This document shows, one piece after another, positions 34,833 to 54,528 of a DNA stretch of 64,000 nt; the stretch's first letter is position 1, and each line of letters opens with the position of its first letter. Origin of the DNA: Marinobacterium jannaschii DSM 6295 (lineage in GTDB: Bacteria; Pseudomonadota; Gammaproteobacteria; Pseudomonadales; Balneatricaceae); contig NZ_JHVJ01000005.1 in the NCBI RefSeq assembly GCF_000620085.1, positions 124,001-188,000 of the forward strand, read 5' to 3'. The position numbers were made by a program, and so were the translations under genes. Under the pieces are notes generated by a model. It worked only from the letters and a program-made list of their open reading frames with translations. It had not been told where the DNA came from and ran no database searches.

Positions 34833-35804
34833 TTGAACCTACGACAGCTAAAGTACTTCATCTCTATCGTTGAACAGGGCAGCTTTCTCAAGGCAGCAAA
34901 AGTGCTATGTATCGCCCAGCCAGCGTTAAGTCAGCATATCGCCAATCTGGAAGATGAGCTTGGCACTCAGCTACTGATCCGTACACCAAGAGGCGTCACT
35001 GCGACACCCGCGGGAGAGGTACTCTACCAACACGCTCAGAAGATTTCGTCACAGTTAAAACAGGCACAGGATGATGTCCGTCTTGAGGCAAATTCGCCGA
35101 AAGGCGATGTAGCGGTTGTGTTGCCTCCAATGCTTTCGATCCATATAGCGCCGCGACTGGTTAAGCTGGTCGATGAGCAGTACCCCGACATCCAGCTTCG
35201 CGCCATGGAGGCCAGGAGTCTTAAGAGCCTGGCGATGGTTGAAAGCAGCCGAGCCGACCTCGGGGTCATCGCTGGAAGCACCCCAAGCAAAACGGTAAAT
35301 ACGCAATTACTTTACGAAGAGCCGCTTTACTTTGTTGAGCAGTACCCTAGCGAAGGCCAGCCCAAGGATATCGATGATGCGATATCGTTTCGCGAAGTTT
35401 CGAAGAAACCCTTGGCCGTCAGTCAGAAAAGCCATGCCGTCCGGGCGATGCTCGAAGATCTATCTGCGAAGAAGGATCTGCCGCTGAATATCAAGCTCGA
35501 AACGGAATCAACCCGGTTAATCATGAGTTTTGCCGCCAGTGGCGTGGCGAACGCCGTAATGCCCTGGCCGTCGATCTACAATATCTGGGAGCAGAAAAAG
35601 ATAACGGCACGAAAGATTACCAGACCCGATATGGTGCGACAGGTCTGTATCGCCTGGCCAAAAAACTATCCACTTAATACGGCATCGATAATCGTCAAGG
35701 ATATGATTTTTAAGATAATTAGGGATCTTTATGAGGAAGGCGTGATCGCAGGCCAGTGGCTGAGTGAGGATCAGCCCGAGGACTGCGATGCCATCGATCA
35801 GTAA
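34833..35804 (+). CDS. LysR-family transcriptional regulator of the catabolic island
   Basis: A 323-residue regulator. The N-terminal helix-turn-helix is LRQLKYFISIVEQGSFLKAA followed by IAQPALSQHIANLEDELGTQLLIRTPRG, and the remainder is the substrate-binding-like effector domain. It resembles the Nac/CynR-like subgroup. Translation most likely begins at TTG 34833, six bases after gggagg (34821-34826); a longer frame from TTG 34788 lacks a binding site. It is convergent with the fused beta-oxidation gene and is the intact regulator nearest the CoA pathway, so it is the best candidate for binding the shared dyads at 38012 and 49545. Confidence 0.92.
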   Translation: MNLRQLKYFISIVEQGSFLKAAKVLCIAQPALSQHIANLEDELGTQLLIRTPRGVTATPAGEVLYQHAQKISSQLKQAQDDVRLEANSPKGDVAVVLPPMLSIHIAPRLVKLVDEQYPDIQLRAMEARSLKSLAMVESSRADLGVIAGSTPSKTVNTQLLYEEPLYFVEQYPSEGQPKDIDDAISFREVSKKPLAVSQKSHAVRAMLEDLSAKKDLPLNIKLETESTRLIMSFAASGVANAVMPWPSIYNIWEQKKITARKITRPDMVRQVCIAWPKNYPLNTASIIVKDMIFKIIRDLYEEGVIAGQWLSEDQPEDCDAIDQ

Positions 35805-35831
35805 TGTGCGTTAGCCTAATCGTTGCGTGGG

Positions 35832-37901
35832 TTAAGCCCAAGCGCCCCGCTTTGCCGCTTGCTCAAAGGCCTGTGCCAACGTCCACCAGCGGGAACCCTG
35901 AGACCCGGCAAGGCAATGAATCTTCTCTGCCACCAGGTCCAGGCCTTTGGATTCTGCATAGTACATTGGGCCGCCCAGATGGCGTGGGAATCCGTAACCG
36001 TTTACAAATACCACATCAATATCCGCCGCACTGGTTGCGATCCCTTCTTCGAGAATATGGGCGCCCTCATTTACCAATCCAAGCATGCAGCGCTCAACGA
36101 TCTCATCGTTCGAGATACTTCGCCGCTCAATCCCCAGTTCCTGGGCGACCTGCTCAATCAACTCCAGCACTTGTGTGTCATCCTGACCAGCTCCGGCACC
36201 ATCCTCATAACGGTAGAATCCGGCGCCGGTTTTCTGGCCTTTGCGGCCAGATTCAACTAACCGATCATGCACTCTAAATGCCCGCTCATCGTACTGTGCA
36301 GCAGTCAGGGTACGACGCATCAGATACCCGATATCGATACCGGACATATCCGCTACCGCAAAGGGCCCCATGGCCATACCAAATTGGTAAAGTGCCTGAT
36401 CAACCTGTGCCGGTGATGCGCCTTCGAGCAGCAGCAACCCCGCCTCACGCTGATAACATTGGTACATCCGATTGCCGATAAAACCGTGGCATACGCCACT
36501 TACAACACCGGTCTTGCCAAGTGTTTTGAGCAGTTTCATCACGGTGAGGATCACATCCGGGCTAACATAATCCGTCTTCACAACTTCAACCAGTTTCATC
36601 ACATTGGCCGGGCTGAAAAAGTGCATACCAATCACGTTTTCTGGGCGAGCAACGGTCTCTGCCAGCCTGTTCATATCAAGGTAGGAAGTATTGCTGGCGA
36701 TGATTGTATCCTGCTTACAAACGGCTTGTAGCTGCTGGAACACCTTGGCTTTAACCTCAATATCTTCGAACACCGCCTCCACCACCATATCCATATTGCC
36801 TAATGCGTTGTAATCGTTGGTCGTACAGATCCTGCCCTGCATCGCCTCGGACTGGTATTCACTCATGCGGCCTCGCTGAACTGATTTAGCATTCAGGCTG
36901 CGAATCCGGTCGATACCACTGGCCAGAGCTTCGGCGGATAGCTCAAGCAGAGTAACCTCGAAGCCACTGTGCGCGAATGCCATCGCAATACCGGTGCCCA
37001 TAGTACCTGCACCAATCACAGCCACGCTTTTAACCGGCCTGGCTTCAGCCTCTTCCAGGCCGATGACCCTGCTGGCCTGACGTTCGGCAAAGAAGATATG
37101 CTGTAAGGCACGTGCTTGTTTGGATTGACGCAGGGCCAGGAACATCTCCCTTTCCAGCCTGCGCCCGGCTTCAAACGGCATGGTGCAGGCTGCTTCCACG
37201 GCGTCGATGCAGGCCTGCACGGATTGCACGCCACGCTGGCCTTTTGCTTTCGACTTTCGCCAGGAGTCAAAAAGCGCCGGTGGCAGGTTATCAGTCAGTC
37301 GTCTCGATACTCTTCTATCCTCCGGGACTACGGACGGAATACAGTTCGCGTAGTTGATAGCGGTATCGAGTAGATCACCATCAGTGACCTGATCGATCAG
37401 CCCAAGTTTCAATGCATCGTCGGTATCAACCGGTGCGCCAGAGGTGATCATATCCAGTGCCTTTTCGGCACCCACCAGCCGAGGCAGTCGTTGCGTTCCC
37501 CCTGCCCCGGGCACTAAACCCAGTTTTACCTCAGGGAGACCAAGCCGGCTGCCATTCACAGCGATGCGATAGTGACAGCCTAAGGCAATCTCAAGGCCGC
37601 CTCCTAATGCCTGGCCGTGAATCGCAGCTACAACTGGTTTATCACTGGCTTCTATCACTGCAACCACATCGGGCAGATCCGGCTCTAAGGAAGGTCTGCC
37701 AAATTCACTAACATCAGCACCGGCCATGAAGGTGCGTCCTGCACAGCAGATCAAAATGCGTCGCGCACGTTCATCGGCATTCGCAGCACTAACGGCATCC
37801 ATGATGCCCTGGCGGACCGCCTGAGAAATCGCATTGACCGGGGGATGATCGACGGTGATTACCGCTACGCCATCTGATATCTGCATGCTGACTGCTGCCA
37901 T
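35832..37901 (-). CDS. Fused enoyl-CoA hydratase / 3-hydroxyacyl-CoA dehydrogenase
   Basis: A 689-residue bifunctional beta-oxidation enzyme like FadB/FadJ alpha subunits or the peroxisomal multifunctional enzyme. The crotonase domain (about 1-190) has the oxyanion-hole segment AGADVSEF, GQALGGGLEIALGCHYRIA and PEVKLGLVPGAGGTQRLPR with the catalytic acidic residues. The NAD-binding dehydrogenase (about 290-480) starts with VAVIGAGTMGTGIAMAFAHSG and has the EAVFEDIEVK and IGMHFFSPANVMKLVEVV segments; C-terminal dehydrogenase domains follow. It would hydrate an enoyl-CoA and oxidise the 3-hydroxyacyl-CoA. A gagg lies six bases before the ATG. It is divergent from the ligase operon. Confidence 0.94.
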   Translation of the reverse strand: MAAVSMQISDGVAVITVDHPPVNAISQAVRQGIMDAVSAANADERARRILICCAGRTFMAGADVSEFGRPSLEPDLPDVVAVIEASDKPVVAAIHGQALGGGLEIALGCHYRIAVNGSRLGLPEVKLGLVPGAGGTQRLPRLVGAEKALDMITSGAPVDTDDALKLGLIDQVTDGDLLDTAINYANCIPSVVPEDRRVSRRLTDNLPPALFDSWRKSKAKGQRGVQSVQACIDAVEAACTMPFEAGRRLEREMFLALRQSKQARALQHIFFAERQASRVIGLEEAEARPVKSVAVIGAGTMGTGIAMAFAHSGFEVTLLELSAEALASGIDRIRSLNAKSVQRGRMSEYQSEAMQGRICTTNDYNALGNMDMVVEAVFEDIEVKAKVFQQLQAVCKQDTIIASNTSYLDMNRLAETVARPENVIGMHFFSPANVMKLVEVVKTDYVSPDVILTVMKLLKTLGKTGVVSGVCHGFIGNRMYQCYQREAGLLLLEGASPAQVDQALYQFGMAMGPFAVADMSGIDIGYLMRRTLTAAQYDERAFRVHDRLVESGRKGQKTGAGFYRYEDGAGAGQDDTQVLELIEQVAQELGIERRSISNDEIVERCMLGLVNEGAHILEEGIATSAADIDVVFVNGYGFPRHLGGPMYYAESKGLDLVAEKIHCLAGSQGSRWWTLAQAFEQAAKRGAWA

Positions 37902-38265
37902 AACATCCTCGCTTAGAATTTTGCTATATGGGTATGTTCCAGCCGGTTCACACCACTCGGTTGACCGCAGGGTAGCAAAGCGAAATCAGCGCAAAAAATA
38001 CAATTTACATGTAGCGACTATCGCAATTCCCTATAGCTAAGGCACCGCAATCACAATCCTTTATTGCTATAACACCCCTGTCTCCTTAGCTATCATTTTT
38101 ATATATATCAAGCAGACTTATTTAATATTTTTCTGATAGCAAATGTTCTTTTATCTTCGGTTTAACCTTCACGGGCTGTGACCTGACGACTGGATTGCCT
38201 GGTCTCGAATGTCGAATAACGCCCGCTGATATGACCCGCTTTAAGTAAACCGGAGAAACAGGTTA
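37902..38265. promoter_or_regulatory. Divergent promoter region of the beta-oxidation genes
   Basis: About 360 bases between the fused hydratase/dehydrogenase (leftward) and ligase operon (rightward). It contains TAGC-GA-CTATCGCA at 38012-38025, nearly identical to a dyad ahead of the tct operon, and TTAGCTATCATTTTTATATATATC at 38087-38110, whose second half again resembles the sequence following the tct dyad. Both are candidate regulator/promoter sites. Confidence 0.55.
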
Positions 38266-39816
38266 ATGAACTTAGGTAGTCTCGTTGTCCGTGCCGCCCG
38301 CTTCTGGGGTGATCGCATAGCCCTCAAAGATGAACAAAAAACTGTCCGCTATTCTGAGCTGGACGAACGCTCCAACCGCCTGGTTAACGCCCTGCATACA
38401 CTGGGCATCCATCAAGGCGACCGGGTCGCGGTACTGGCGTGGAACCGCACCGAGCTCGTTGAAGCAGAGGTCGCACTGTACAAAGGTGGCTTTGTGCGCG
38501 TACCGGTCAACGCCCGGCTGTCGGCGCAGGAAGCGGTGCATGTTTGTAACGATTCCCAGGCTAACCTGCTGATTGTCGATTCGCAGCATCTGGAAGCCGC
38601 AAAGCTGGCTCTGAACGAATGTCCAACCGTTTCCGGTATTCTGGTAATGGGTGACGGCATCACCGAAGACAGCTACGAAGCCGCGCTGAAAGACGCGTCT
38701 GCGAAATTAGAACTGCCTGATCTGGCTGGCGACGACCTGGCGGTACTGCACTACACCTCCGGTTCATCCGGAGTGCTGAAAGCTGCGATGCAGACCGTGG
38801 GTAACCGCATGGCCATTGTGCGTAAGGTCAACTACCGGGCCGGTCTGCACGTAGATCGTCCGGAGACCATGGTGCACGTGGGCCCGATCACCCACGCCTC
38901 CGGCATGTCGATCCTGCCGTTGCTGGCCCAGGGCTGTAAGCACGTGGTCCTGAGTCGCTTTGACGTGGATACCTACCTGAGCGTGATCGAAGCGGAAAAG
39001 GCGCAGCAGACTTATCTGGTGCCAACCATGATCAACCGTATCCTCTCTTCGCCGAATCGCGATAAGTATGACATCAGCAGTCTGCGCCAGATCCGTTACG
39101 GTGCAGCGCCAATCTCTGCTGCCCGCCTAAAAGAAGCAATCGAGTTCTTCGGCCCGATCCTGAACCAGGGTTACGGTGCCGGTGAAACTAACCACTCCGT
39201 TTGCATGCTGACTGAAGAGGACCACGCCAGCGCGCTTAACGGCTACCCGGAGCGCCTGACTTCCTGTGGTCGCCCGCTGTTTGAGAGCGAAGTAAAAATC
39301 GTCGATGACGCAGGCAACGAGATGCCAGTGGGTGAGCGCGGCGAGATGATCATCCGCGGCAACGACGTGATGGCGGGTTACTGGAACGCGCCGGATCTGA
39401 CCGATGCGGCGCTGAAAAACGGCTACTACCACACCGGCGATATCGCTTACGCCGACGAGCACGGCTACCTGTTCATCGTCGATCGTAAGAAAGACATGAT
39501 CGTCTCTGGCGGATTCAACGTCTATCCGAACGAAGTGGAGAACGCCCTCTATCACCACCCTTCCGTATTCGAGGCTTGCGTGGTTGGCGCGCCTGATCCG
39601 GATATGGGCGAAGTGGTACAAGCTGTGGTGGTGCTGAAAGAAGGTCACGAAGGCAATGCCGATGAGCTAATCGAACACTGCGCCAACGAGCTGGGTAAGT
39701 TCAAGAAACCCCACGCGGTGGATTTCGTGTCTGAACTGCCAAAGAACAACACCGGCAAAATCCAGCGCCGCGACGTACGTGCTGAGTACTGGAAAGGTCA
39801 GGACCGTAAGGTCTGA
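38266..39816 (+). CDS. AMP-forming acyl-CoA synthetase
   Basis: A 516-residue adenylate-forming ligase that would activate a carboxylic acid with ATP and CoA. The phosphate-binding motif reads YTSGSSGVLKAAMQT (about 164-178), off the usual TSGTTGxPKG at two places but with the Lys kept. Later motifs are standard: NQGYGAGE, YYHTGDIAYADEHGYLFIVDRKKDMIVSGGFNVYP (two consecutive core motifs) and the C-terminal PKNNTGKIQRRDVR with the catalytic Lys. Overall it is like medium-chain or aromatic-acid ligases; the substrate is open. First gene of a four-gene operon (ligase, dehydrogenase, CoA-transferase, thiolase). Confidence 0.93.
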   Translation: MNLGSLVVRAARFWGDRIALKDEQKTVRYSELDERSNRLVNALHTLGIHQGDRVAVLAWNRTELVEAEVALYKGGFVRVPVNARLSAQEAVHVCNDSQANLLIVDSQHLEAAKLALNECPTVSGILVMGDGITEDSYEAALKDASAKLELPDLAGDDLAVLHYTSGSSGVLKAAMQTVGNRMAIVRKVNYRAGLHVDRPETMVHVGPITHASGMSILPLLAQGCKHVVLSRFDVDTYLSVIEAEKAQQTYLVPTMINRILSSPNRDKYDISSLRQIRYGAAPISAARLKEAIEFFGPILNQGYGAGETNHSVCMLTEEDHASALNGYPERLTSCGRPLFESEVKIVDDAGNEMPVGERGEMIIRGNDVMAGYWNAPDLTDAALKNGYYHTGDIAYADEHGYLFIVDRKKDMIVSGGFNVYPNEVENALYHHPSVFEACVVGAPDPDMGEVVQAVVVLKEGHEGNADELIEHCANELGKFKKPHAVDFVSELPKNNTGKIQRRDVRAEYWKGQDRKV

Positions 39817-39844
39817 TCCGCAAACGGCCAAGAGGAAACAATCC

Positions 39845-41062
39845 ATGCAACATATGAAAAACGCCGGGATGCCGGAAGCGGACTTCAACGCCCTGCGCGA
39901 AAAGATGAACGCCTTCATTTACGATGAGCTGATACCACTGGAGAAAGAACAAGGCCTGACACCGGAAACCTGCTTCTCCCGTGATCAGCTGCAGGAGATC
40001 TGGCAGCGTTCCTACGAGCTGGGCATCTATGGCTGCAACCTGCCGAAAGAATTTGGCGGCCTGGGCCTGTCGATCAGCCAGCTGTGTATTTTGAAAGCCG
40101 ACGCCACCCGTTCTAACGCCGCCTTATATGGCTGTGTACTGGGTGAGAACGGCGGCCCGATGCGTATCGGCTACATCCTCAATCAGGCGACCGAAGGCCA
40201 GCTAGAGGAGTTCTTTATCCCCACCGCACAGGGTAAGCGTGCCGGTTGTTTCGCCCTTACCGAGCCCCAGGCTGGCTCCGATGCAACCCGCATCGAGACC
40301 CGCGCATTACAGGACGGCGACGACTACATCCTCAACGGTCACAAGCGCTTTATCACGGCTTCGCGTACTTCCGATTATGCCATCGTGATGGCGGTTACCG
40401 ATCCTGACGCAGGTACCGACGGCGTGACCGCCTTCCTGGTCGATGCAGATTCCGACGGCTACGAGATCGCTGGTGAATACCTACCGATGTCCGGCCAGCA
40501 CATCGACAATGATATCTACCTGAAAGATGTGCGCGTTCCGGCGCGCAATATACTCGGCGGCCTGGGAAACGGCTTTAAACTAGGAATGAACCGCATAAAT
40601 ATCAATCGCTTACTGCAATGCCCTACCATGCTAGGTCATGCAGAATTCGTCTACGCGCAGGCAGTCGATTACGCCAACCGCCGTGTGCAATTTGGGCGTC
40701 CGATCGCCAACTTCCAGGCGATCCAGCACATGCTGGCCGATATGAAAACCGCCCTCTTCGCCTGTCGCAGCATGATCGAATCCGCAGCGGCCAAAGCGGA
40801 CCGTGGCGAAGATATCCGCAGCGAAGCCTCCATGTGTAAGGTCTTCGTTGGCGAAAACGCTTTCCAGATCGCCGACAAGGCAATCCAGATCCACGGTTCT
40901 GTGGGCATGACTCAGGGTGAGCCTGTGGAATGGGTATTCCGTCGCCTGCGAATGTTCCGTGTCCTGACCGGTTCCAGCGAAGTTCAGCGCAATACCATCG
41001 CCAAAGGCATCAACAAAGACTGGCAGAAAGCCCAGCAGGCTGCAGAGGAAGCACAATCATGA
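39845..41062 (+). CDS. Acyl-CoA dehydrogenase
   Basis: A 405-residue FAD-dependent dehydrogenase that introduces the 2,3-double bond into an acyl-CoA. Family signatures are present: GCFALTEPQAGSDATRIETRA (about 132-152, split), the LNGHKRFIT strand, GRPIANFQAIQHMLADM, and QIHGSVGMTQGEPVEWVFRR. The start at 39845 follows gaggaaacaatcc; an upstream frame from 39779 overlaps the ligase and is not used. Its stop overlaps the CoA-transferase start by four bases. Confidence 0.95.
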   Translation: MQHMKNAGMPEADFNALREKMNAFIYDELIPLEKEQGLTPETCFSRDQLQEIWQRSYELGIYGCNLPKEFGGLGLSISQLCILKADATRSNAALYGCVLGENGGPMRIGYILNQATEGQLEEFFIPTAQGKRAGCFALTEPQAGSDATRIETRALQDGDDYILNGHKRFITASRTSDYAIVMAVTDPDAGTDGVTAFLVDADSDGYEIAGEYLPMSGQHIDNDIYLKDVRVPARNILGGLGNGFKLGMNRININRLLQCPTMLGHAEFVYAQAVDYANRRVQFGRPIANFQAIQHMLADMKTALFACRSMIESAAAKADRGEDIRSEASMCKVFVGENAFQIADKAIQIHGSVGMTQGEPVEWVFRRLRMFRVLTGSSEVQRNTIAKGINKDWQKAQQAAEEAQS

Positions 41063-43655: not shown

Positions 43656-44591
43656 CTAGAGGCTTTCAACGTAGCGAATCATATGCCGACGTTCGACCTG
43701 AGTGGGCAATCGGCCATAAAGCGCCCCCATGTTCTCCTCCATGTGCGCAATCTGAGAGGTAGCGGGAATCGCACAAGTAACTGCCGGGTGCGAAACGACA
43801 AACTTCAGGAAGAACTGTGCCCAGTTTGCGCAATCTATCTCAGGCGCCCAGGGTGGAAGCGGCTGATTTTGGAAGAGATGAAAGAGTGCTTTGCGCCGGA
43901 ACGGACGATTAGCGATCACCGCGATGCCGCGCTCGGCGGCCATGGGCAGTAAACGCGCCTCCGCCTCGCGATCGAGAATGTTATAGGTCAACTGCACGAA
44001 GTCGAGTGGCTCCTGGCGCATAATCTGCTCAAACTTCGTATGACGCCGGCCATGGGAGGTGGTTATGCCAATATAGCGGATACGCCCTGCCTCCTTCCCC
44101 TTGCGGAGGGTTTTCAGATGATCCTCCCAGCTAAGGATATTGTGCACCTGTATCAGGTCGAAGGTGTTAACGTCCCATAGATCCTGTGATGTCGCTATCT
44201 GCGCAGGGCCTTGGGAGCTGAACCAGGTCCAGACTTTAGTTGCAGTGAAGGGGTCTGCTGTATTGCTAAGCTGCTTCAGGCAGTAACCGATCACCGCCTC
44301 CGACGAACCGTACATTGGCGAGGAATCGATCATCCGCCCGCCTCGGTCAAAAAACGTCTGCAGAATTTTCATGCGATGACCGAGCAACCGACTATCACGC
44401 CCGACATCGAAGGTCTTCCAGGTCCCCATACCGATGACTGGTAAGGTTTCGCCTGTGGCAGGAATCGCTTTAACCAACGGCTGACTGGATATCGCCCGGG
44501 CAGGCAGGGCTCCGAGTGATGCGAGTGCGCTCCCGTAGGCCAGCAACCATAGAACGTCGCGACGGTTCAGCCCCCTAGAGAATGTCCCCAT
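43656..44591 (-). CDS. Aldo/keto reductase with Tat-type signal peptide
   Basis: A 311-residue aldo/keto reductase family protein. It begins with RGLNRRDVLWLLAYGSALAS, a twin-arginine-like signal followed by a hydrophobic stretch and PARA cleavage, so export to the periplasm is likely. The mature domain has IGMGTWKTFDVG, the active-site region FDRGGRMIDSSPMYGSSEAVIG (catalytic Asp and Tyr), the Lys in TATKVW, and QVHN. It lies inside the catabolic island but transcribed opposite to its neighbours. An oxidoreductase needing NADPH outside the cytoplasm is unusual; either the cofactor comes bound or the role differs. Confidence 0.85.
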   Translation of the reverse strand: MGTFSRGLNRRDVLWLLAYGSALASLGALPARAISSQPLVKAIPATGETLPVIGMGTWKTFDVGRDSRLLGHRMKILQTFFDRGGRMIDSSPMYGSSEAVIGYCLKQLSNTADPFTATKVWTWFSSQGPAQIATSQDLWDVNTFDLIQVHNILSWEDHLKTLRKGKEAGRIRYIGITTSHGRRHTKFEQIMRQEPLDFVQLTYNILDREAEARLLPMAAERGIAVIANRPFRRKALFHLFQNQPLPPWAPEIDCANWAQFFLKFVVSHPAVTCAIPATSQIAHMEENMGALYGRLPTQVERRHMIRYVESL

Positions 44592-45854: not shown

Positions 45855-47102
45855 ATGCAATTAACTGCGCATCAACAAAAGATGCTTGATGGCAACTTCG
45901 GCCCCGCCTATGCCTGGGCAATGAAGTTTCTGGCAGATACCGGTAGCGTGCTGGGTGCCGACCGGCTGATACCTATCCGTTACGCCTTTTTTATGGCCGA
46001 TACCGACGCTATGGGCGAAGCAGGTATCAACTTTATGGAAGAGTTGGCACTGGCTGCGCCGGAGCAACGCATCCCTGCCGCCAATCTCTATCTGGAGAGT
46101 CGCCAGACCGCCGCTGAACTTGCCGATTACGGCCTACCACAGTGGTTTATGGACCTGGACCAGCGCCGCCTGAATGCCATCGCCAAGCTGGGTTGCATTA
46201 TGGAGTACGGTCATATCAACAACCACTCCATCCCCGCGCCCTGCTTTGGTGAATCTATTGCGATGGGCTCGACGCCTACGGCGATCTATGCCAACTCCGC
46301 CCTGGGTGCACGCACTAACTTTGAAGCGGGTCCCGCTGCTTTAGCGTCTGCGCTGGCCGGATACGTACCACGCTGGGGCCTGCATCTGGATGAAAACCGC
46401 GTCCCTAAGCGCGTATTCGAAGTAGAGCGCACACCACAAAGCCTCGCGGAATGGGGTGCCTTAGGCGCGGCTATCGGCCTGCGTCTAAACAACGCCAGCG
46501 AAATTCCGCTGATCAAAGGGCTACGGGAACATCCGGGTGCACTGGCTCTGAATCATATAGGTGCATCCCTGGCCAGTTACGCCGCCGTAGGCCTGTTCCA
46601 CATTGAAGGAGTAACGCCGGAAGCGCACCAGTTCAACGATATCGATCTGCCGGTGGAGAGGCTGACCGCTACCGAACTGGACGCCGTAATAAGCACCGAA
46701 AAGCTCGACGGTCAGGTGCTGGATTTGGTGGTGCTGGGCGCACCGCAGATGGGCTGGAACGAAGTGGTTGAGCTGGCACAACTGCTAGACGGCAATCAGG
46801 TAGCAGACTGCACCACCCTGCTGGCCTTTGTCGACAAGGGCAGCATCGAAACCGCCCGTACACTGGGGCTAGCTGACAAACTGGAAGCCGCCGGCTGCCG
46901 TTTACTGGATGGTATCGATTATTTCCAGTCCGGCTCCGAGCCAATCCGTCAGGCCAATGGTTGGACCACCACCCTAACGGCTTCGCCGAAGCTGGGCAAC
47001 ATCCTCAACGGTGCCGGCTATAAAGCCGCTGCGACAACACTGGAAACTTGTGTGGCCTCCGCTATTGCCGGGCACGTAATTCAAGGGGAGGCAAAGGCAT
47101 GA
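45855..47102 (+). CDS. Aconitase X, catalytic (large) subunit
   Basis: A 415-residue protein of the AcnX (DUF521) catalytic family. Typical features are the N-terminal LTAHQQKMLDG, the segment GCIMEYGHINNHSIPAPCFGES (two possible cluster Cys), GSTPTAIYANSALGARTNFE and the terminal Cys region (ADCTTLLAF, LETCVASA). Known bacterial members dehydrate cis-3-hydroxy-L-proline and an archaeal form dehydrates mevalonate 5-phosphate; members are Fe-S dehydratases. No proline-pathway reductase or mevalonate gene is nearby, and the context is dicarboxylate beta-oxidation, so its substrate may be a hydroxycarboxylic acid of this pathway. Overlaps the small subunit by four bases. Confidence 0.9.
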   Translation: MQLTAHQQKMLDGNFGPAYAWAMKFLADTGSVLGADRLIPIRYAFFMADTDAMGEAGINFMEELALAAPEQRIPAANLYLESRQTAAELADYGLPQWFMDLDQRRLNAIAKLGCIMEYGHINNHSIPAPCFGESIAMGSTPTAIYANSALGARTNFEAGPAALASALAGYVPRWGLHLDENRVPKRVFEVERTPQSLAEWGALGAAIGLRLNNASEIPLIKGLREHPGALALNHIGASLASYAAVGLFHIEGVTPEAHQFNDIDLPVERLTATELDAVISTEKLDGQVLDLVVLGAPQMGWNEVVELAQLLDGNQVADCTTLLAFVDKGSIETARTLGLADKLEAAGCRLLDGIDYFQSGSEPIRQANGWTTTLTASPKLGNILNGAGYKAAATTLETCVASAIAGHVIQGEAKA

Positions 47103-47503
47103 ACAAGCTGAAGAGTTCTAAACCAGGACTGGGGGCAGCAGTTGAAGGTAAAGCGCTGGTGCTGAAATGCGCCTTTTCCGCCCGTTATGACCTGGACGTC
47201 AAGACCGGCAAATTCCTTCGCCCCGGCCTCGCTACGGAAGATGCCTGCGTCGCAGGAAAAATCCTGATCGCTGACCGCGCCAAGGGCGGTGTAGCCAGCT
47301 CATGGCTGCTTCGTGAGATGGTTCGCCTTGGTACTGCGCCAGCCGCGCTGGTATTTAACAACGCGGGGCCGGTAATGGTGCAGGCTGCTGCCTTTGCGGG
47401 CATCTCGCTGCTGGATGGATTTGAAGAAGATGTGACCGAAGTACTGACTCAAGACCAACAGCTTTGGCTAGATCCGGCCAATCGGGAAATTGTTGCCGAA
47501 TAA
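47099..47503 (+). CDS. Aconitase X, swivel (small) subunit
   Basis: A 134-residue AcnX small subunit (DUF126). The core GKALVLKCAFSARYDLDVKTG, RPGLATEDACVAGKILIADRAKGGVASSWLLREMVRLGTAPAALVFNNAGPVMVQAA-type sequence (shown here as motif stretches KGGVASSW and FNNAGPVM) is the mobile swivel domain that closes over the large subunit. The ATG at 47099 overlaps the large-subunit stop (ATGA). It ends just ahead of a hairpin terminator, so lactonase-AcnX large-AcnX small make one unit. Confidence 0.9.
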   Translation: MNKLKSSKPGLGAAVEGKALVLKCAFSARYDLDVKTGKFLRPGLATEDACVAGKILIADRAKGGVASSWLLREMVRLGTAPAALVFNNAGPVMVQAAAFAGISLLDGFEEDVTEVLTQDQQLWLDPANREIVAE

Positions 47504-47699: not shown

Positions 47700-47722
47700 C
47701 CATCACCTCAGCGATACAGGGT

Positions 47723-48032
47723 TGGAGCAAACCTTAGATACCACGTTGTTTGTCCGTCATCCCAGGGGGGCAATACCCACCCGTGATGCGGATACCTTGT
47801 ATATGATGTCTAAAGAGCTCACTGAGCGTGAAAAGTCGATCAAAGCAAGGTCACACTACGACCGCTGATTCCGGAAAAGTGGATGTCATTTGGCTTGCTG
47901 TTGCCACAGCAACGGGAGCAGTCCGAAAGCGTAAACCGGCTTATCAAGCTGTTTCGAGCACGCGCTCGAGTCCTTGCGGATGGGGATCAAAATATTGCCG
48001 TGGTAAATAGGGATGACCAGCAGTCACCCTGA
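47723..48032 (+). pseudogene. Degraded LysR-type regulator remnant
   Basis: The frame from 47723 reads LEQTLDTTLFVRHPRGAIPTRDADTLY, the wing and turn that follow the recognition helix of LysR proteins (LE..L...LF.R..RG...T), and IHHL just before it fits the helix. It closes after 145 bases. In another frame, 47850-48032 reads VTLRPLIPEKWMSFGLLLPQQ and SESVNRLIKLFRARARVLA, matching the end of a LysR effector domain. About 150 residues between them are missing. It appears to be a regulator lost by internal deletion. Confidence 0.55.
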
Positions 48033-48061
48033 GTCGTTCTATGCATCCTTAACTGCGGCTT

Positions 48062-48553
48062 TTATCTCAGCAGCGTCTCAGATAGCGTGGTAATTTTGTC
48101 ACCTAGCACGCCGACATTCCTAGCCAGTTCACGGGTGAGATTAAGCAGCAGGATACCGAACGCCTGTGGTAACTCCTCATGCATCTGATAAAACTGGCTG
48201 GATGAGATTTCCAGCAAGATACTCTGCTGCTTGGCGATGGCTGTACCATAACGGTCATGGAGGGCAATCATGCCGGTAAAGCCTACATGTTCTCCCGGCT
48301 GACATAACCGGGTTAACACCAGCTGGTCCTTAAGCGGTCGGCAAGTCGACAGGCTACCTATGAGGACTATATAGAATTCGTTGACACGGTCCCCCGTTTT
48401 GAACAGCATCTCGTCCGCTTCCAACTCAACGATTTTTCCGTTCTCTATTAGCCAGCGCACCGCATCTTCAGGTAAAGCGCCGAATGTCGCTAACTCCCTC
48501 AAGTGCTCTAACGGTAGTTCACTTAGCAATACTTCAGGATCAACGGGTTGCAT
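48062..48553 (-). CDS. Cyclic nucleotide-binding domain protein without DNA-binding domain
   Basis: A 163-residue Crp-like sensory domain. The beta-roll shows IVELEADEMLFKTGDRVNEFYIVLIGSLST and PGEHVGFTGMIALHDRYGTAIAKQQSILLEISSSQF (shown as its two halves), followed by the C-helix. No helix-turn-helix follows, so it is probably a regulatory partner, not a transcription factor. The ATG at 48553 has ggagg six bases upstream; a TTG five codons earlier is less likely. It is about 70 bases downstream of the TauE/SafE gene on the same strand and probably in its operon. Confidence 0.82.
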   Translation of the reverse strand: MQPVDPEVLLSELPLEHLRELATFGALPEDAVRWLIENGKIVELEADEMLFKTGDRVNEFYIVLIGSLSTCRPLKDQLVLTRLCQPGEHVGFTGMIALHDRYGTAIAKQQSILLEISSSQFYQMHEELPQAFGILLLNLTRELARNVGVLGDKITTLSETLLR

Positions 48554-48623
48554 GGTCAACCTCCGCAAGCTCAGGCATTGGATATAGCAAATATAGCAGT
48601 GCTAGTTACCCTGCCCTTCCGTG

Positions 48624-49376: not shown

Positions 49377-49538
49377 TTAATGTCATCCGAAATGGGAAAT
49401 TAGGTAGATCGACTCGTCGACAGCGTTCCGCAGACGGCACTCGCCACGGCTAGCTTTTGTCACAGCAACCGCACCGGTAGGTTTGGGGCAGATACCCTAT
49501 CAGGCTATCGAATAGAACTAAGCTTAAAAAATAGGATT

Positions 49539-49558
49539 TAGCGATAGCCGCTATCGCA
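49539..49558. promoter_or_regulatory. Candidate regulator dyad upstream of the tct operon
   Basis: GCGATAG-CCG-CTATCGC with flanking TA and A. The 14-base stretch TAGC-CG-CTATCGCA (49545-49558) matches TAGC-GA-CTATCGCA at 38012-38025 except for the two middle bases. A LysR-type regulator is a likely binder. Confidence 0.55.
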
Positions 49559-49609
49559 TTTTTATATACGCGCAGTGGCCAAAGCATGATGCAAAATATA
49601 TCTATGGAC

Positions 49610-49676
49610 ACAGCCTTCTTATGTCGGGCAGGTAAATAGACGTAGTTGATCTAACGTCTGCAGAAGGCTGTTTTTT
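49610..49676 (+). terminator. Terminator-like hairpin in the tctC leader
   Basis: ACAGCCTTCT (49610-49619) pairs with AGAAGGCTGT (49662-49671) and is followed by TTTTT. An inner stem AGACGT/ACGTCT (49638-49643 / 49654-49659) is nested in it. No plus-strand gene ends nearby, so it may end a short leader or small RNA, or act as an attenuator of the tct operon. Confidence 0.65.
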
Positions 49677-49916
49677 CAGAATTTATAGAACCTGACTTGA
49701 AACAGAAAGAGCGTCGTAGGCGAGACATTTCGGGATATTCAGCAGAAAGTTCAGGTATACGAAAATCCTATACGCCGGATATCAACATAGTATTTCCTGC
49801 GCATTCAACACATTTGCTAGTTTAGAGCCAGTAGCTGGAGAGGCTCCACCGTAGCACGCTCCAGATCTAACCCTTAACCTCTCGGATTAAATAATAATAC
49901 TAAAGGGGATTACTCC

Positions 49917-50864
49917 ATGAAGCTGCGCAAAGCCTTTACGAAAACCGTGTCCTGTCTGGCCCTTGCCCTCGCCGGATCGGCACTCGCCGCAGATTACCCA
50001 GAACGTCCAGTCAACCTGATTGTCGGCTACAAAGCCGGTGGTGGTGTCGATACCTATGCACGCGCGTTGGCCAAAGTTGCTCCAGATCATCTCGATGGCC
50101 AGCCGATTGTCGTGGTAAACAAACCAGGCGGTGGCGGTCTGATCGGCGGGCGCTTTGTTGCCGACCAGCCACCAACAGGCTATTCACTCTATCTGGCGTC
50201 TGCAGGCTCAATGGTGCTACGCAACCTTGCCAAACCACAGGTGGTCTCCACCAATGACTTTAAAATGGTAGCAACTATCGGTGAGCTGACCGCAGGGGTA
50301 TTTGTACCGGCCTCTTCACCGATCAAAACCCTGCCGGAATTGATCGAGAAGATAAAAAGCTCTGGCAATAAAATGCGCTGGGGTCACACCGGTCGCGGCA
50401 ATGTCTGGCATGTGGCGGGCGTTGGCATGATGAAGAAAAATGAGATCAAAGCTAAGGACATTCCATTCAAAGGTGGTTCTGCCGTGCGCTCTGCTCTAAT
50501 TAGCAACCAGATTGACTTCGGCGTAATTGGCGCTCATCTGGGACGCGGCTTTGAGGACGATATTCGCTTGCTTGCAGTGCTGTCGGATCGCCGTCACCCG
50601 GCAGTCCCCGATATCAGTACAGCGGACGAGTTGGGTGTCCCTTTTACCAAGGTATCCTCTCCAATCATCGTCATGGCACCGAAGCGGGTAAAACACGATA
50701 CCATCCAGCAGCTGTCTGATGCCGTATTTGAAATGGTCAGCGACAAAGACTACACCGCAGTGATGGACAAGGCAGGATTACCTGTTGCCAACCTTAATTG
50801 GGCAGACACAGAAGACCTGGTTAGAAACGTTAAGGTCGGCTGGAAGTCTCTGGTAGGTAAATAA
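49917..50864 (+). CDS. tctC: Tripartite tricarboxylate transporter, periplasmic binding protein
   Basis: A 315-residue Bug/TctC-family solute receptor. A signal peptide (about 1-25, TVSCLALALAGSALAA) precedes YPERPVNLIVGYKAGGGVDT, the usual ligand loop; other family segments are VVVNKPGGGGLIGGR and the later FKGGSAVRSALISNQIDFGV. It delivers a carboxylate, often a di- or tricarboxylate, to TctAB. A good Shine-Dalgarno (agggga) precedes the ATG. First gene of tctCBA. Confidence 0.93.
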   Translation: MKLRKAFTKTVSCLALALAGSALAADYPERPVNLIVGYKAGGGVDTYARALAKVAPDHLDGQPIVVVNKPGGGGLIGGRFVADQPPTGYSLYLASAGSMVLRNLAKPQVVSTNDFKMVATIGELTAGVFVPASSPIKTLPELIEKIKSSGNKMRWGHTGRGNVWHVAGVGMMKKNEIKAKDIPFKGGSAVRSALISNQIDFGVIGAHLGRGFEDDIRLLAVLSDRRHPAVPDISTADELGVPFTKVSSPIIVMAPKRVKHDTIQQLSDAVFEMVSDKDYTAVMDKAGLPVANLNWADTEDLVRNVKVGWKSLVGK

Positions 50865-50867
50865 GCA

Positions 50868-51395
50868 ATGAGTACACGCGACCTGAACTACTCAGATCGC
50901 CGGGCGCGCATGACTGCGCGCCACGATCTGGCCACAGGCCTGGTAATCGTGGCTCTGGCGATCTTTCTGTTTGTCGAGTCTTTATCGATTCCTGTGGATC
51001 CGGAAGAACCCGGCTTAAGCTCACGATTCTTCCCCCAGAGCATCTGTGGCCTTATGGCATTACTCGGCACAATTCTGGCGTTTAATGGCGCTCGAGGCCG
51101 AGCAGCTCCAGACGATAAGACAACCTTTGCTGGCAGTGTTTTTGTCCGCAAGGTATTGCCACTATCTGCGCTGAGCTTTGCCTATGTATGGTTGTTTCAA
51201 CTGTTCGGCTATACCACAGCAACATTGATTACGCTCTATATCGCCAGCTACCTGTTTGGCGTGCGCGGCAAGGCATTGGCCCTGCTGTCTCCGATCATGT
51301 CTTTGCTGTTCTATTACCTGTTTTTCGGCCTGATGGGCGTGTTTGAACCGCCGGCAGAGATCTTTGATGTGATGGTTTACCTGAAGGGTTTGTAA
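50868..51395 (+). CDS. tctB: Tripartite tricarboxylate transporter, small membrane subunit
   Basis: A 175-residue TctB-type protein with four predicted transmembrane helices (about 24-42, 60-78, 100-118, 125-165). Sequence similarity in this family is low, but size, topology and position between tctC and tctA identify it. Three bases separate it from tctC. Confidence 0.9.
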   Translation: MSTRDLNYSDRRARMTARHDLATGLVIVALAIFLFVESLSIPVDPEEPGLSSRFFPQSICGLMALLGTILAFNGARGRAAPDDKTTFAGSVFVRKVLPLSALSFAYVWLFQLFGYTTATLITLYIASYLFGVRGKALALLSPIMSLLFYYLFFGLMGVFEPPAEIFDVMVYLKGL

Positions 51396-51406
51396 CGGTA
51401 CCGACT

Positions 51407-52924
51407 ATGGATTTAATTAACGGTTTTATTACGATTTTTTCTCAGCCGATGACCATGTTGTTTATCGTCATGGGCTCGGTACTGGGAGTTGTGGTTGGCG
51501 CTGTACCCGGCCTGACGGCCTCGGCAGCAATCGCGATGTTGGTGCCGATCACCTATTATATCGATCCGCTGTCAGCACTGGCGTTCCTGTACGTGATCGG
51601 TAAGGCAGGTCGCTTCGGAGGCTCTATCTCCGCCATTCTATTCAATACGCCCGGCACCACTGCAGCCGCTGCGACCATCCTGGACGGTCACCCGCTGACC
51701 CAGAAAGGCCAGGCAGGTAAAGCGCTGAAGACGGCCTCCCTGGCGTCGGCGATTGGCGATTTCACCGGTGAGATCCTGCTGATCTGTGGCGCGCTCACCA
51801 TTGCTACCTTTACCAAACAGCTGGGACCGCCAGAGTACTTTGCCATCTATGTCTGTGCCTTCCTGATTATCGGCAGCGTCATATCCAGCTCAGTACTGAA
51901 AGGCATCATCTCGACACTGTTTGGTGCCTCGCTGGCGATGATCGGCCTCGATCCGATTACCTCAGAGCCACGATTCGATTTCGGCATGATTGAGCTGTAC
52001 AACGGCCTCTCGCTGGTGCCTTTATTGATCGGTCTGTTCGTGATTTCCGAGGTATTCACCCAGGCAACCCATAATCACGCCAATGATGGTCATCACGACA
52101 CTGTTAAGGCCAACAACCCGGAGGATAGCCAGCTGTCCTGGAGTGAGGCGAAACGCTGTCTGCCATTTATTGGGAAAGGATCTGCCATCGGCTCCATCGT
52201 CGGCCTGCTACCCGGTGTCGGTTCCGCCGTTGCCTGTTTCGTCGCCTATGGTGAAGGTCGCCGCAAAGCGAAAAACGGCGACAAATGGGGTACAGGTGTT
52301 ATCGAAGGTGTAGCCGCGCCAGAAGCTGCGAACAATGCCGTGTCTGGGCCAAGCATGATCCCACTTCTCGCACTAGGTGTGCCGGGCAGCACCATCGCTG
52401 CGATGCTGCTCGGCGTGTTTATGATCCACGGTATTCAGGTCGGTCCGCAGATCTTCGAAACTTCCGGTGATATCGTATACGGCCTGTTCGCCGCTGGCCT
52501 GATCGGAATCTTGCTTTACTTCCTGATCGGTTGGTTTGGGAGTGCCTTTATCGGTCGCCAGATTGATAAGATCCCTGCCATCATGATCTACCCTTCTATC
52601 CTGGCTGTAGCTTGTGTGTCGGCCTATACAGCGCGCTCAAGCCTGTTTGATGTGGGACTGGCCTGTATATTCGGTGTGATTGGCTATCTGATGCGGGTCA
52701 CGAACCTGAGTACCGCTGCGGCAGTCATCGCATTTGTACTGGCACCCGGCGCTGAGCAGGCTCTGCGTCAGTCCCTGCTGTTAAGCGATGAAGGCTTTGC
52801 AATCTTCTTGGATCGCCCAGTGGCATTGGCTTTCTTCGCCATCCCCGTCTTCGCTATTTCACTGCGCCTTTATTCACGCTTGCGCAGTCAGAAAACTCCA
52901 GCGGAAATGCTCGACTCTGCATAA
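51407..52924 (+). CDS. tctA: Tripartite tricarboxylate transporter, large membrane subunit
   Basis: A 505-residue TctA permease with about 12 transmembrane helices. Both repeat signatures are seen: GAVPGLTASAAIAMLVPITY near the N-terminus and IVGLLPGVGSAVACFVAYGEGRR, plus AAPEAANNAVSGPSMIPLLALGVPGS, highly conserved in the family (shown in parts). It forms the channel for the solute captured by TctC. Followed by a hairpin terminator. Confidence 0.95.
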   Translation: MDLINGFITIFSQPMTMLFIVMGSVLGVVVGAVPGLTASAAIAMLVPITYYIDPLSALAFLYVIGKAGRFGGSISAILFNTPGTTAAAATILDGHPLTQKGQAGKALKTASLASAIGDFTGEILLICGALTIATFTKQLGPPEYFAIYVCAFLIIGSVISSSVLKGIISTLFGASLAMIGLDPITSEPRFDFGMIELYNGLSLVPLLIGLFVISEVFTQATHNHANDGHHDTVKANNPEDSQLSWSEAKRCLPFIGKGSAIGSIVGLLPGVGSAVACFVAYGEGRRKAKNGDKWGTGVIEGVAAPEAANNAVSGPSMIPLLALGVPGSTIAAMLLGVFMIHGIQVGPQIFETSGDIVYGLFAAGLIGILLYFLIGWFGSAFIGRQIDKIPAIMIYPSILAVACVSAYTARSSLFDVGLACIFGVIGYLMRVTNLSTAAAVIAFVLAPGAEQALRQSLLLSDEGFAIFLDRPVALAFFAIPVFAISLRLYSRLRSQKTPAEMLDSA

Positions 52925-52942
52925 GACCCTGTGGCTAAACCT

Positions 52943-52978
52943 GCAGGCTTCTTCCTGATAATGTCGGTAGAAGCCTGC
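52943..52978 (+). terminator. Hairpin terminator after tctA
   Basis: GCAGGCTTCT (52943-52952) pairs perfectly with AGAAGCCTGC (52969-52978) 18 bases after the tctA stop. The downstream run is caatttcctttct, so it is a terminator-like stem of moderate strength, possibly leaving read-through into the sulfatase gene. Confidence 0.65.
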
Positions 52979-53088
52979 CAATTTCCTTTCTAAATTATTA
53001 ACTTCTGGCCCTGCTGAGATCCCTCACTCCGACGCTTTCCCGTATAGAGTGGCTCACCCTGCCAGACAAAAAGCCCAAGGTACGTTCA

Positions 53089-54528
53089 ATGAAAACCAAG
53101 AACATGATCGTCATCATGTCTGACGAACACGCCAACAAGATTATTGGTAGCCACGGCCACCTTTTCATTAAAACTCCCAATATGGACCGCCTGGCCGCAG
53201 AGGGATGTCGCTTTACCTCAGCTTACACCAACTCCCCGATCTGCCTACCCGGACGTGCAGCCTTTGCTACCGGCCGCTATGTCAACGAGACCGGGTACTG
53301 GGATAATGCCCATCCTTATGAGGGTGCTATTGATAGCTGGGGCCACCTAATTCAACGCAAAGGGGTGAAGTCGGTTTCAATCGGCAAGCTGCACTACCGT
53401 AACGAAACCGATGATGTGGGCTTCGACGAGCAGATTCTGCCGATGCATGTAGTCGGCCAGCAAGGCGATATTCTGGGGTCGGTGCGCGATGACCTACCAC
53501 GCCGAATGAAGTGTAAATCCATGTCCGATCAAATTGGCCCAGGTGAGAGCTCTTACACCCAGTACGATCGCAATATTACCGACCTGTCTTGCAAATGGCT
53601 GGATGAAAATGCCAATGAAGGCCCCTTTGTCCTATACATTGGCTTGGTCGCGCCTCACTTCCCGCTGATAGCACCCGAAGCTTTCTATAACTTGTACAAA
53701 GATCTGGATATCCCAATGCCGAAGGCCTACGACATTGCGAAGCGTCCCGACCATGGCTGGCTGAATCAGTGGCGCAAATGCTGGATACACGATGAGTTCT
53801 TCGATGACGAAAAAGTCATCGTGGCACTGAAAAGCTACTATGGCCTCGTCTCCTTCCTCGACGACAATATCGGCAAGATACTGAATGCGCTGCAAGCGAG
53901 CGGCGTCGCGGATGAGACCCAGGTAGTCTATACCTCAGATCACGGTGACAATATGGGCGCTCGCGGACTCTGGGGTAAATCCACCTTCTTCGAGGAAGCT
54001 GCCGGCATTCCAATGATCGCCAAAGGCCCCGACATTAAGCCTGGGACAGTGTGTAAGACGCCAGTATCGCTGGTCGACGTAGCCACTACGATCAGTACAG
54101 AGATGGGCGGAGATACGCCTGACAGCTGGCCGGGCACTTCATTGAATAAACTGGCTTCGGAGCCATACGATCCGGAGCGAGTTGTATTTGCTGAATACCA
54201 TGCGGCTGGCGCTATCAGCGGGGCATTTATGCTGCGCAAAGGACGCTATAAATATATCTACTATGTAGGCTTTGAACCGCAGCTATTTGATGTGATCGCC
54301 GATCCAGAAGAACTGACAGATATAGCAGGGCTTACAGAAAACGAGGCGCTTCTGCAGCAGTTTGAGCAGGAACTTCGCACTATTTGTGATCCCGAGGAAG
54401 TGGATGCCCGCGCCAAGCGTGATCAGAAAAAGCTGGTGGACGAGAATGGTGGTCGAGATGCTATCGTCGCTAAGGGCGGCTTTGGCGCTACTCCAGCACC
54501 GGGACAGGACGCAGAATACCGATCCTAA
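53089..54528 (+). CDS. Type I (formylglycine) sulfatase, cytoplasmic
   Basis: A 479-residue alkaline-phosphatase-fold sulfatase. The residue converted to formylglycine is Cys 52 in ICLPGRAAFATGRY, a C-x-P-x-R motif with Leu and Gly at the variable places. Metal ligands are visible in VIMSDEHANK (Asp/Glu at about 11-12) and the C-terminal YTSDHGDNMGARGLWGK. It resembles choline-sulfatase-type and COG3119 enzymes. There is no signal peptide, so it acts in the cytoplasm. Following the tct genes it may cleave a sulfate ester imported by them. Phosphonate monoesterase activity cannot be ruled out. A formylglycine-generating enzyme must be elsewhere. Confidence 0.9.
   Translation: MKTKNMIVIMSDEHANKIIGSHGHLFIKTPNMDRLAAEGCRFTSAYTNSPICLPGRAAFATGRYVNETGYWDNAHPYEGAIDSWGHLIQRKGVKSVSIGKLHYRNETDDVGFDEQILPMHVVGQQGDILGSVRDDLPRRMKCKSMSDQIGPGESSYTQYDRNITDLSCKWLDENANEGPFVLYIGLVAPHFPLIAPEAFYNLYKDLDIPMPKAYDIAKRPDHGWLNQWRKCWIHDEFFDDEKVIVALKSYYGLVSFLDDNIGKILNALQASGVADETQVVYTSDHGDNMGARGLWGKSTFFEEAAGIPMIAKGPDIKPGTVCKTPVSLVDVATTISTEMGGDTPDSWPGTSLNKLASEPYDPERVVFAEYHAAGAISGAFMLRKGRYKYIYYVGFEPQLFDVIADPEELTDIAGLTENEALLQQFEQELRTICDPEEVDARAKRDQKKLVDENGGRDAIVAKGGFGATPAPGQDAEYRS

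Follow-up and report, generated by a model that had tools for sequence, protein, structure and literature searches.

A stretch of 64,000 nucleotides from Marinobacterium jannaschii DSM 6295 (hereafter the window, part of contig C4 in a genome of 5.18 Mb) contains, at window positions 34833–54528, an island of catabolic genes that recurs elsewhere. The same 14 genes are co-located in four bacteria from three genera and two families, and by linkage the island is one unit. Judged from its genes, it probably imports and breaks down a sulfated or lactone-forming acid. The reading that we favour, with moderate confidence, is that of a probably mobile 14-gene catabolic unit that would take a sulfated or lactonisable hydroxy-polycarboxylate to 3-oxoadipyl-CoA, and then to succinyl-CoA and acetyl-CoA. 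The most surprising part of the island is an altered aconitase X (AcnX), made of a large (AcnX-L) and a small (AcnX-S) subunit.

Conservation and gene content of the island

A scan of the genome collection with AcnX-L revealed 31 relatives, of which three were more than 60% identical: those of P. sinense (90%), Photobacterium sanctipauli (68%) and Motiliproteus coralliicola (64%). The 14 genes span 33 kb in P. sinense, 17 kb in Photobacterium (L003:1174-18060) and ~22 kb in Motiliproteus (G662:C5). Gene order and orientation vary among the four islands, and several kb of other genes are inserted in that of P. sinense. The genes for the predicted lactonase (Amh2), AcnX-L and AcnX-S are adjacent and keep their order in all four. 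Genes for the CaiB-type CoA-transferase and the sulfatase co-occur in the same four of seven genomes searched (E≤1e-60), and are jointly present or absent in 7/7. The neighbourhood search that the first-pass annotation had set as its linkage check was thus answered in favour of one island, with AcnX, lactonase, tct and sulfatase genes clustered with the CoA genes in four genomes.

AcnX-L was found in two of the five genomes of the genus shared with P. sinense, the window's own included, and AcnX in one of 52 Photobacterium genomes. This distribution is patchy, and the 14-gene unit therefore probably moves horizontally. Across the order (293 genomes), other AcnX-L matches reached 31% identity at best. 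The Photobacterium island is bordered by a transposase-like open reading frame (ORF), recognised by eye at L003:18079-18861, directly beside a tctC gene without a normal start. Between the window and P. sinense, rough estimates of the ratio of non-synonymous to synonymous substitution rates (dN/dS) were 0.027–0.094 in 10 of the 14 genes, with 0.048 and 0.047 for the AcnX subunits. AcnX-L is under purifying selection.

Gene families were assigned by Pfam and NCBIfam profile matches plus ORF calls, and every gene named in the first-pass annotation of this interval was found with its stated family. A gene was called core if present in the window island and in those of P. sinense, Photobacterium sanctipauli and Motiliproteus coralliicola. 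The features are as follows, with values for the other three islands separated by slashes.

34833–35804, +, LysR regulator (core); PF00126/PF03466; homologues 88/67/58%
35832–37901, −, FadB/FadJ-like enoyl-CoA hydratase and 3-hydroxyacyl-CoA dehydrogenase (core); PF00378, PF02737, PF00725
38266–39816, +, AMP-forming acyl-CoA ligase (core); PF00501/PF13193; 93/71/71%
39842–41062, +, acyl-CoA dehydrogenase (ACAD)-fold enzyme, LTG replacing YEG (core); PF00441, PF02770, PF02771
41059–42240, +, class III (CaiB/Frc) CoA-transferase (core); PF02515
42251–43456, +, 3-oxoadipyl-CoA thiolase PcaF (core); TIGR02430, 738 bits, cut-off 597
43656–44591, −, aldo/keto reductase, N-terminus like a twin-arginine translocation (Tat) signal (non-core); PF00248
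44908–45792, +, LigI-like amidohydrolase Amh2, predicted lactonase (core); PF04909 (Amidohydro_2)
45855–47102, +, AcnX-L, altered-site type (core); PF04412, 274 bits; residue table, tree and AlphaFold2 model
47099–47503, +, AcnX-S (swivel), Ser to Gly (AKGG) (core); PF01989, 64 bits
47681–47948, +, fragments of two further LysR genes; tblastn with the second LysR of P. sinense and Motiliproteus
48062–48568, −, cyclic nucleotide (cNMP)-binding-domain protein (window and P. sinense only); PF00027
48624–49376, −, TauE/SafE permease (core); PF01925; 75/51/49%
49917–50864, +, TctC binding protein (core); PF03401
50868–51395, +, TctB (core); PF07331
51407–52924, +, TctA (core); PF01970, 445 bits
53089–54528, +, Cys-type sulfatase without signal-like N-terminus (core); PF00884

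The cNMP-binding-domain gene was matched only in P. sinense among the other islands, and is hence non-core. The aldo/keto reductase, which has an NRRD motif ahead of a hydrophobic stretch (Tat-like by sequence), was unmatched in the other three islands (loci L002, L003, L004, L067-L069). It had been counted as an island gene in the first-pass annotation, but lies outside the conserved unit and was dropped as a pathway member. Two different LysR genes are present as fragments between the AcnX-S and TauE genes; P. sinense and Motiliproteus have intact relatives of them, which follow AcnX on its downstream side.

An altered aconitase X

In characterised AcnX proteins, the iron-sulfur (Fe-S) cluster is carried by Cys110, Cys283 and Cys342 of the large subunit in T. 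kodakarensis, and by Cys273, Cys508 and Cys510 in A. tumefaciens; further catalytic residues are Glu129/292, a Lys, a Tyr and a swivel-domain Ser acting as general base (PMC8184944). Cys mutants of an archaeal AcnX had less than 4% activity and a Glu mutant 76% (PMC10040528). Residues at these sites were counted in 62 aligned large subunits, namely four island proteins, ten from a lineage that we call KGG and 48 others, the A. tumefaciens and T. kodakarensis rows being among the latter; L067, from the same genome as L002, was omitted. All rows were collected by likeness to the window AcnX, and the sample is non-random.

The key positions of the island AcnX-L are E81, H120, S139, A296, D355, K379 and I383. 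The site of A. tumefaciens C273 is His (H120) in all four island proteins, whereas it is Cys in 10/10 KGG and 48/48 other proteins. Similarly, the C508 site is Asp (D355) in 4/4 island proteins, versus Cys in 10/10 KGG proteins and in all 45 others that have a letter there (3 gaps). The Glu292 site is occupied by Ser in the four island proteins, Asp in the KGG lineage and Glu in 48/48 others, and the Tyr534 site by Ile in the island (4/4) and KGG proteins, versus Tyr in 45/45 others with letters. Ala is found in both groups at the site of T. kodakarensis Cys283, which is Cys in 29 of the 48 others. The substrate-binding Lys530 (K379) is kept throughout (4/4 island, 10/10 KGG, 45/45 others with letters). 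In AcnX-S, the general-base Ser is replaced by Gly in the four island and nine KGG proteins read, and is Ser in the other 33 rows read.

Fe-S ligand, Glu, Tyr and general-base Ser positions are therefore all replaced, and the statement that AcnX dehydrates hydroxyacids, which the first-pass annotation had applied here, is not simply transferable. By these residues, the mechanism of AcnX-L/S cannot be the published Fe-S/Ser one. H120, E81 and D355, and both subunits, are conserved in all four islands. The four island AcnX-L share Cys114, Cys130 and Cys348 without exception, and Cys130 and Cys348 occur in less than 10% of the other rows; a re-ligated cluster is therefore as possible as a mononuclear site made of E81, H120 and D355.

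In a tree of 48 rows (without L067, seven near-identical archaeal, five Burkholderia/Paraburkholderia and two partial rows), the 14 island and KGG sequences form a single clade (support 100/100). Within it the island proteins form a long-stemmed branch (100/100), and the ten KGG proteins group at 94/93. On this tree, the island AcnX is a divergent branch of the uncharacterised KGG lineage. The AlphaFold2 model of AcnX-L (predicted local distance difference test, pLDDT, 90.3) had its best match in 7cnr, with a template modelling (TM) score of 0.83 (Foldseek TM 0.83/0.89), and weaker matches in other aconitase-superfamily proteins; among viral structures no match was found at E≤0.001. Residues 121–123 have a pLDDT below 50 and belong to a loop without confident modelling. 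Catalytic and swivel domains reside on two adjacent subunits (PF04412 with 274 bits, PF01989 with 64 bits). The nearest NCBIfam model gave 155.9 bits, well below its cut-off of 700, and on this cut-off and on the residues an assignment as hydroxyproline or mevalonate-phosphate dehydratase was rejected.

KGG-lineage AcnX is rare. It is spread over alpha-, beta- and gammaproteobacteria, frequently with catabolic genes as neighbours. On L071, an acylating sulfoacetaldehyde dehydrogenase gene, sauS (757.8 bits, cut-off 600), and an AMP-ligase gene form a pair (2237-5205) some 4–5.5 kb from the KGG AcnX, with TauE-like and TctC-like ORFs, recognised by eye and without NCBIfam match, beyond the pair. 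Genes resembling the two-subunit, thiamine-dependent sulfopyruvate decarboxylase, below cut-off, lie on two other KGG AcnX loci (L078:2608-3828 and L080:807-1985, of which L080:807-1406 by eye). The neighbours are fumarase- and succinate-dehydrogenase-like genes in Sulfitobacter S190, and glycolate-oxidase genes in NT-26. The sauS and sulfopyruvate-decarboxylase-like neighbours were not retained as a direct substrate clue, as they belong to KGG-lineage loci, and L070 and L071 come from one genus.

The other island enzymes and their relatives

Among the families shown, PcaF alone of the island enzymes passed a substrate-specific curated cut-off (TIGR02430, 738 versus 597 bits). Three of the four thiolase patterns match, and the fourth site reads CTMCIG. 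A second PcaF, 73% identical to that of the island, is encoded elsewhere in the window genome. The FadB-like enzyme has the catalytic motifs GGGLE, LGLPE, SNTS and MHFFSP. An adipyl-CoA-like end point leading to acetyl-CoA and succinyl-CoA, as proposed in the first-pass annotation, is supported by these two enzymes. The closest solved relatives of the CaiB-type protein are succinate-hydroxymethylglutarate CoA-transferases, and its score with the succinate-glutarate CoA-transferase model NF052585 was 217 bits, versus a cut-off of 750. Hydratase/dehydrogenase, thiolase, transferase, lactonase and sulfatase have motifs that are expected of such enzymes, and they appear ordinary.

The ACAD-fold enzyme has its three domains (PF02771, PF02770, PF00441), and LTGSSE at residues 375–380. 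LTG stands in the place of YEG in all four orthologues, which also have Asn at the aligned position of what we take to be the alternative, isovaleryl-type catalytic Glu. The catalytic Glu is missing, and therefore ordinary alpha,beta-dehydrogenation is not assured. A decarboxylating dehydrogenase and a desulfinase are among the known relatives that lack this Glu (PMC8360864; see also PMC11659651). An xTG-type ACAD is found near an AMP-ligase in four Burkholderiales plasmid relatives (L090, L091, L092, L093), accompanied by CaiB in Cupriavidus oxalaticus and Burkholderia ambifaria, by TctC in C. oxalaticus and Comamonas endophytica, and more loosely in Variovorax; LysR was also seen. CaiB and ligase of the C. 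oxalaticus and B. ambifaria modules are 45–49% identical to those of the island, and no thiolase appears among the genes listed around the four plasmid ACADs in what was read. Since the xTG type recurs in these relatives, it looks like a conserved, uncharacterised type and not a broken gene. Among 274 genomes of the class, no ACAD relative was found at E 1e-110 besides the window's own.

Amh2 had its best solved match in 2-pyrone-4,6-dicarboxylate hydrolase (4d8l, 159.6 bits). It contains CDCHAH at residues 31–36 (HxH), DHMG at 181–184 and SDWPH at 249–253, corresponding to the catalytic HxH, His and Asp of LigI-like lactonases, and keeps the three aligned Arg that bind carboxylates in LigI. 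Its only NCBIfam match, to 4-sulfomuconolactone hydrolase (NF042924), is far below cut-off (229.8 versus 500 bits). A Tistrella lactonase, 58.5% identical, is encoded beside FAD-linked-oxidase-like and TRAP-like ORFs (by eye); AcnX was matched in 10 plasmid records, of which the Tistrella record is not one. The islands of Motiliproteus and P. sinense also contain, together with a second tctC, genes for PcaB-superfamily lyases (below cut-off), in keeping with lactone or muconate-like chemistry.

The sulfatase has CLPGR at residues 52–56, which is the C-x-P-x-R maturation motif of type I (Cys) sulfatases, and the metal-ligand motifs SDE (11–13) and DHGD (284–287); no signal-like N-terminus is present. 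Its choline-sulfatase score (TIGR03417) was 274 bits, under the cut-off of 433.45. An anaerobic sulfatase maturase gene, above its cut-off, adjoins the sulfatase gene in Motiliproteus, and the window genome encodes two FGE-domain proteins, one of them showing TAG. The tripartite tricarboxylate transporter (TTT) is complete, with TctC (PF03401), TctB (PF07331) and TctA (PF01970) together. No solved relative of TctC is close enough to name its substrate.

A related sulfatase (E≤1e-80) was found in 20 plasmid records, and 11 annotated contexts were read over 5–8 kb on each side. TctC and the TctA permease were encoded near the sulfatase (44–49% identical) in seven: Chelativorans, Sulfitobacter mediterraneus, Rhodobacteraceae M382, Alisedimentitalea, Paracoccus seriniphilus and two Sulfitobacter SK012 plasmids. 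The M382 and Alisedimentitalea neighbourhoods are almost identical, so that the seven are not independent cases. No TctC or TctA appeared within the 5–8 kb shown per side in Neorhizobium, Nocardia, Mameliella and Paraburkholderia. This recurring module of Alphaproteobacteria plasmids (L096, L098, L112-L114, L116, L117) has a MarR-type or winged-helix regulator in five of seven cases. An FAD-linked or FAD-binding oxidase, which would fit a desulfated hydroxyacid where present, occurs in 5/11 contexts but in 2/7 of those with TTT.

The module points to bacterial uptake of intact sulfate esters of hydroxycarboxylates. In the Creative Commons-licensed literature of PubMed Central (hereafter the licensed literature), no paper combining sulfatase, TTT and sulfate ester was found, and of those naming both sulfatase and TTT none presents a module of this kind in its title or the first lines of its abstract. 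The first-pass annotation had proposed a carboxylate with a sulfate ester, hydroxyl or lactone as candidate substrate; the linkage in 7 of 11 contexts is independent support for a sulfate ester with TTT uptake.

A putative route to 3-oxoadipyl-CoA and its alternatives

In the route that we favour, TctCBA would import a hydroxy-polycarboxylate that bears a sulfate ester, can close to a lactone, or both. The cytoplasmic sulfatase would strip the sulfate, with TauE disposing of the anion, and the LigI-like hydrolase would open the lactone. The AcnX-like enzyme, encoded directly downstream of the lactonase, would then act on the freed hydroxyacid by a non-canonical step. CoA would be loaded by the ligase, the CaiB-type transferase or both, and the LTG-type ACAD-fold enzyme together with the hydratase/dehydrogenase would yield 3-oxoadipyl-CoA. 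PcaF would split it to succinyl-CoA and acetyl-CoA, and the succinyl-CoA can prime the transferase. The PcaF step is the one that rests on a passed specific model, while substrates, step order and AcnX reaction are inferred. AcnX-L/S and the ACAD are without the known catalytic residues, and therefore the chemistry may be new. Of the single pathway first proposed, in which the substrate was trimmed, dehydrated and beta-oxidised, the linkage and the PcaF end point stand; AcnX dehydration and an ordinary ACAD step are not assured, and the aldo/keto reductase drops out of the unit.

A more specific version, which we advance tentatively, is that AcnX has left the known Fe-S chemistry of its family for a protein-derived mononuclear metal site (candidate residues E81, H120/H124, D352/D355) or for a cluster moved to C114, C130 and C348, has abandoned the Ser base, and would be paired with the Glu-less ACAD in a route, not described before, that takes sulfated or lactonised hydroxy-polycarboxylates to 3-oxoadipyl-CoA. 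The first-pass annotation knew of no described pathway with this gene set, and none was found among the matches listed from the licensed literature. No paper there combined AcnX with TTT, or at least two of the three organism names, 3-oxoadipyl-CoA and aconitase X; its papers on AcnX, dehydratase and gene cluster concern hydroxyproline and structures.

Several observations weigh against the favoured route. The step order is guesswork, no island enzyme besides PcaF passes a substrate-specific curated model among the families shown, and the lactonase and AcnX need not share one compound. TauE may export sulfite rather than handle sulfate, and no anaerobic sulfatase maturase was found in the window genome at E 1e-30. 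KGG-lineage AcnX genes stand in varied contexts that tell no single clear story. The Photobacterium copy is partly decayed, with two in-frame stops in the ligase gene, one internal stop near the start of tctA, and no start codon in tctC before about residue 34. As for selection, dS is saturated and gives no value for LysR, FadB, TauE and sulfatase, and exceeds 1 in most remaining genes (3.5 in AcnX-S), making the dN/dS ratios rough.

The best surviving alternative, which we nevertheless regard as unlikely, is a C7 tricarboxylate substrate with a carboxymuconolactone-like or homocitrate-lactone-like lactone, from which the LTG enzyme would oxidatively decarboxylate the extra alpha-carboxyl to give 2,3-dehydroadipyl-CoA for FadB and PcaF. 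TTT transport, the below-cut-off PcaB-superfamily lyases inside two islands, the three Arg that Amh2 shares with LigI, and LTG for YEG in 4/4 orthologues agree with it. Glu-less relatives perform non-standard chemistry, and the benzylmalonyl-CoA dehydrogenase IaaF, for which oxidative decarboxylation is proposed, would be the model (PMC8360864). The island motif, however, is xTG and not GGG, xTG enzymes also occur in ligase-linked modules with no thiolase listed in the stretch read, and no homocitrate-type partner enzymes are present.

A sulfonate ranks next, and appears more doubtful. An ACAD-fold or AcnX-like enzyme would free sulfite from a C-S bond substrate and TauE would export it, leaving the sulfatase-like protein to work on another ester. 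TauE is indeed present in all four islands, the sole NCBIfam match of Amh2, far below cut-off, is 4-sulfomuconolactone hydrolase, and a Glu-less ACAD-fold desulfinase is known (PMC8360864). The KGG AcnX of L071 lies ~5.5 kb from sauS, with TauE-like and TctC-like ORFs (by eye) beyond, and sulfopyruvate-decarboxylase-like subunits, below cut-off, are near two KGG AcnX; but these neighbours belong to the KGG lineage, not to the island branch. Moreover, a Cys-type sulfatase with intact motif is found in all four islands and its relatives recur with TTT elsewhere, whereas no known desulfonating enzyme (e.g. Xsc, SuyAB) is among the 14 core genes.

It is improbable, and ranks below a sulfonate, that AcnX of the island has ceased to be a hydro-lyase and has kept its fold as a non-catalytic, binding or regulatory protein. 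The replaced Cys, Glu, Ser and Tyr positions would agree with such a loss, as does the activity below 4% of the archaeal Cys mutants (PMC10040528). In contrast, Lys379 is kept, 4/4 islands retain both subunits as well as H120, E81 and D355, the dN/dS values are 0.048 and 0.047, and the sister KGG lineage, though rare, extends over three proteobacterial classes, often beside catabolic genes. Least probable are independent operons held together by chance or by an insertion hot spot: gene order and orientation differ among the islands, P. sinense has its several kb of inserted genes, and submodules occur alone elsewhere (sulfatase with TTT; ligase and ACAD with CaiB or TctC), but the same 14 genes stand together in three genera and two families, with CaiB and sulfatase jointly present or absent in 7/7 genomes.

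According to published work, neither what the bacterial AcnX types IIc–IIf do nor which type of cluster other AcnX subfamilies carry is known (PMC10040528; PMC8184944). The island gives a divergent, cysteine-swapped AcnX a defined set of partners, which shortens the candidate substrates to hydroxy di- and tricarboxylates, their lactones and sulfate esters. It could also reveal how the fold of an Fe-S enzyme adjusts when the cofactor is altered or missing.

Three other gene groups were observed around the island. Window positions 6477–20062 hold a nuo (complex I) gene set in which the 30- and 49-kDa subunits are fused. A NiFe-hydrogenase gene set lies just beyond the window (L101:7703-12868), its large subunit confirmed by PF00374 and the remainder recognised by eye. 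At 57902–60617, a DUF2889 protein is encoded beside a PaaY-like hexapeptide protein (318.4 bits, slightly below the cut-off of 319.6) and a periplasmic binding protein.

Comparison with known systems

The island AcnX shares Pfam domains, fold (7cnr, TM 0.83) and substrate Lys with known AcnX, and has two adjacent subunits as in type II; it differs in the replaced Fe-S Cys positions, Glu, Tyr and general-base Ser. Amh2 has fold, HxH, DHMG, SDWPH and the three Arg positions in common with LigI and 4-sulfomuconolactone hydrolase (COG3618), whereas LigI Arg183 and Tyr156, presumably functional residues of LigI, correspond to His and Leu in Amh2, and the gene neighbours differ. Loss of the YEG motif is common to the island ACAD, IaaF and 3-sulfinopropionyl-CoA desulfinase, but the latter two have GGG or AGG in its place, versus LTG in the island and xTG in the four plasmid relatives near a ligase.

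The TTT-linked sulfatase modules of Sulfitobacter, Paracoccus, Chelativorans and others have the same type of sulfatase with TctC and TctA close by. In contrast to the island, the stretches read list neither AcnX nor CoA genes, and a MarR-type or winged-helix regulator (5/7) and an FAD-linked oxidase (2/7) occur. Finally, the island has a CoA-transferase, an ACAD fold, a hydratase/dehydrogenase and PcaF in common with what we take to be its nearest pathways, dca (adipate-type) beta-oxidation and the lower beta-ketoadipate pathway. It departs from them by a class III transferase with an extra ligase, a Glu-less ACAD, the added AcnX, lactonase and sulfatase, and TTT uptake.

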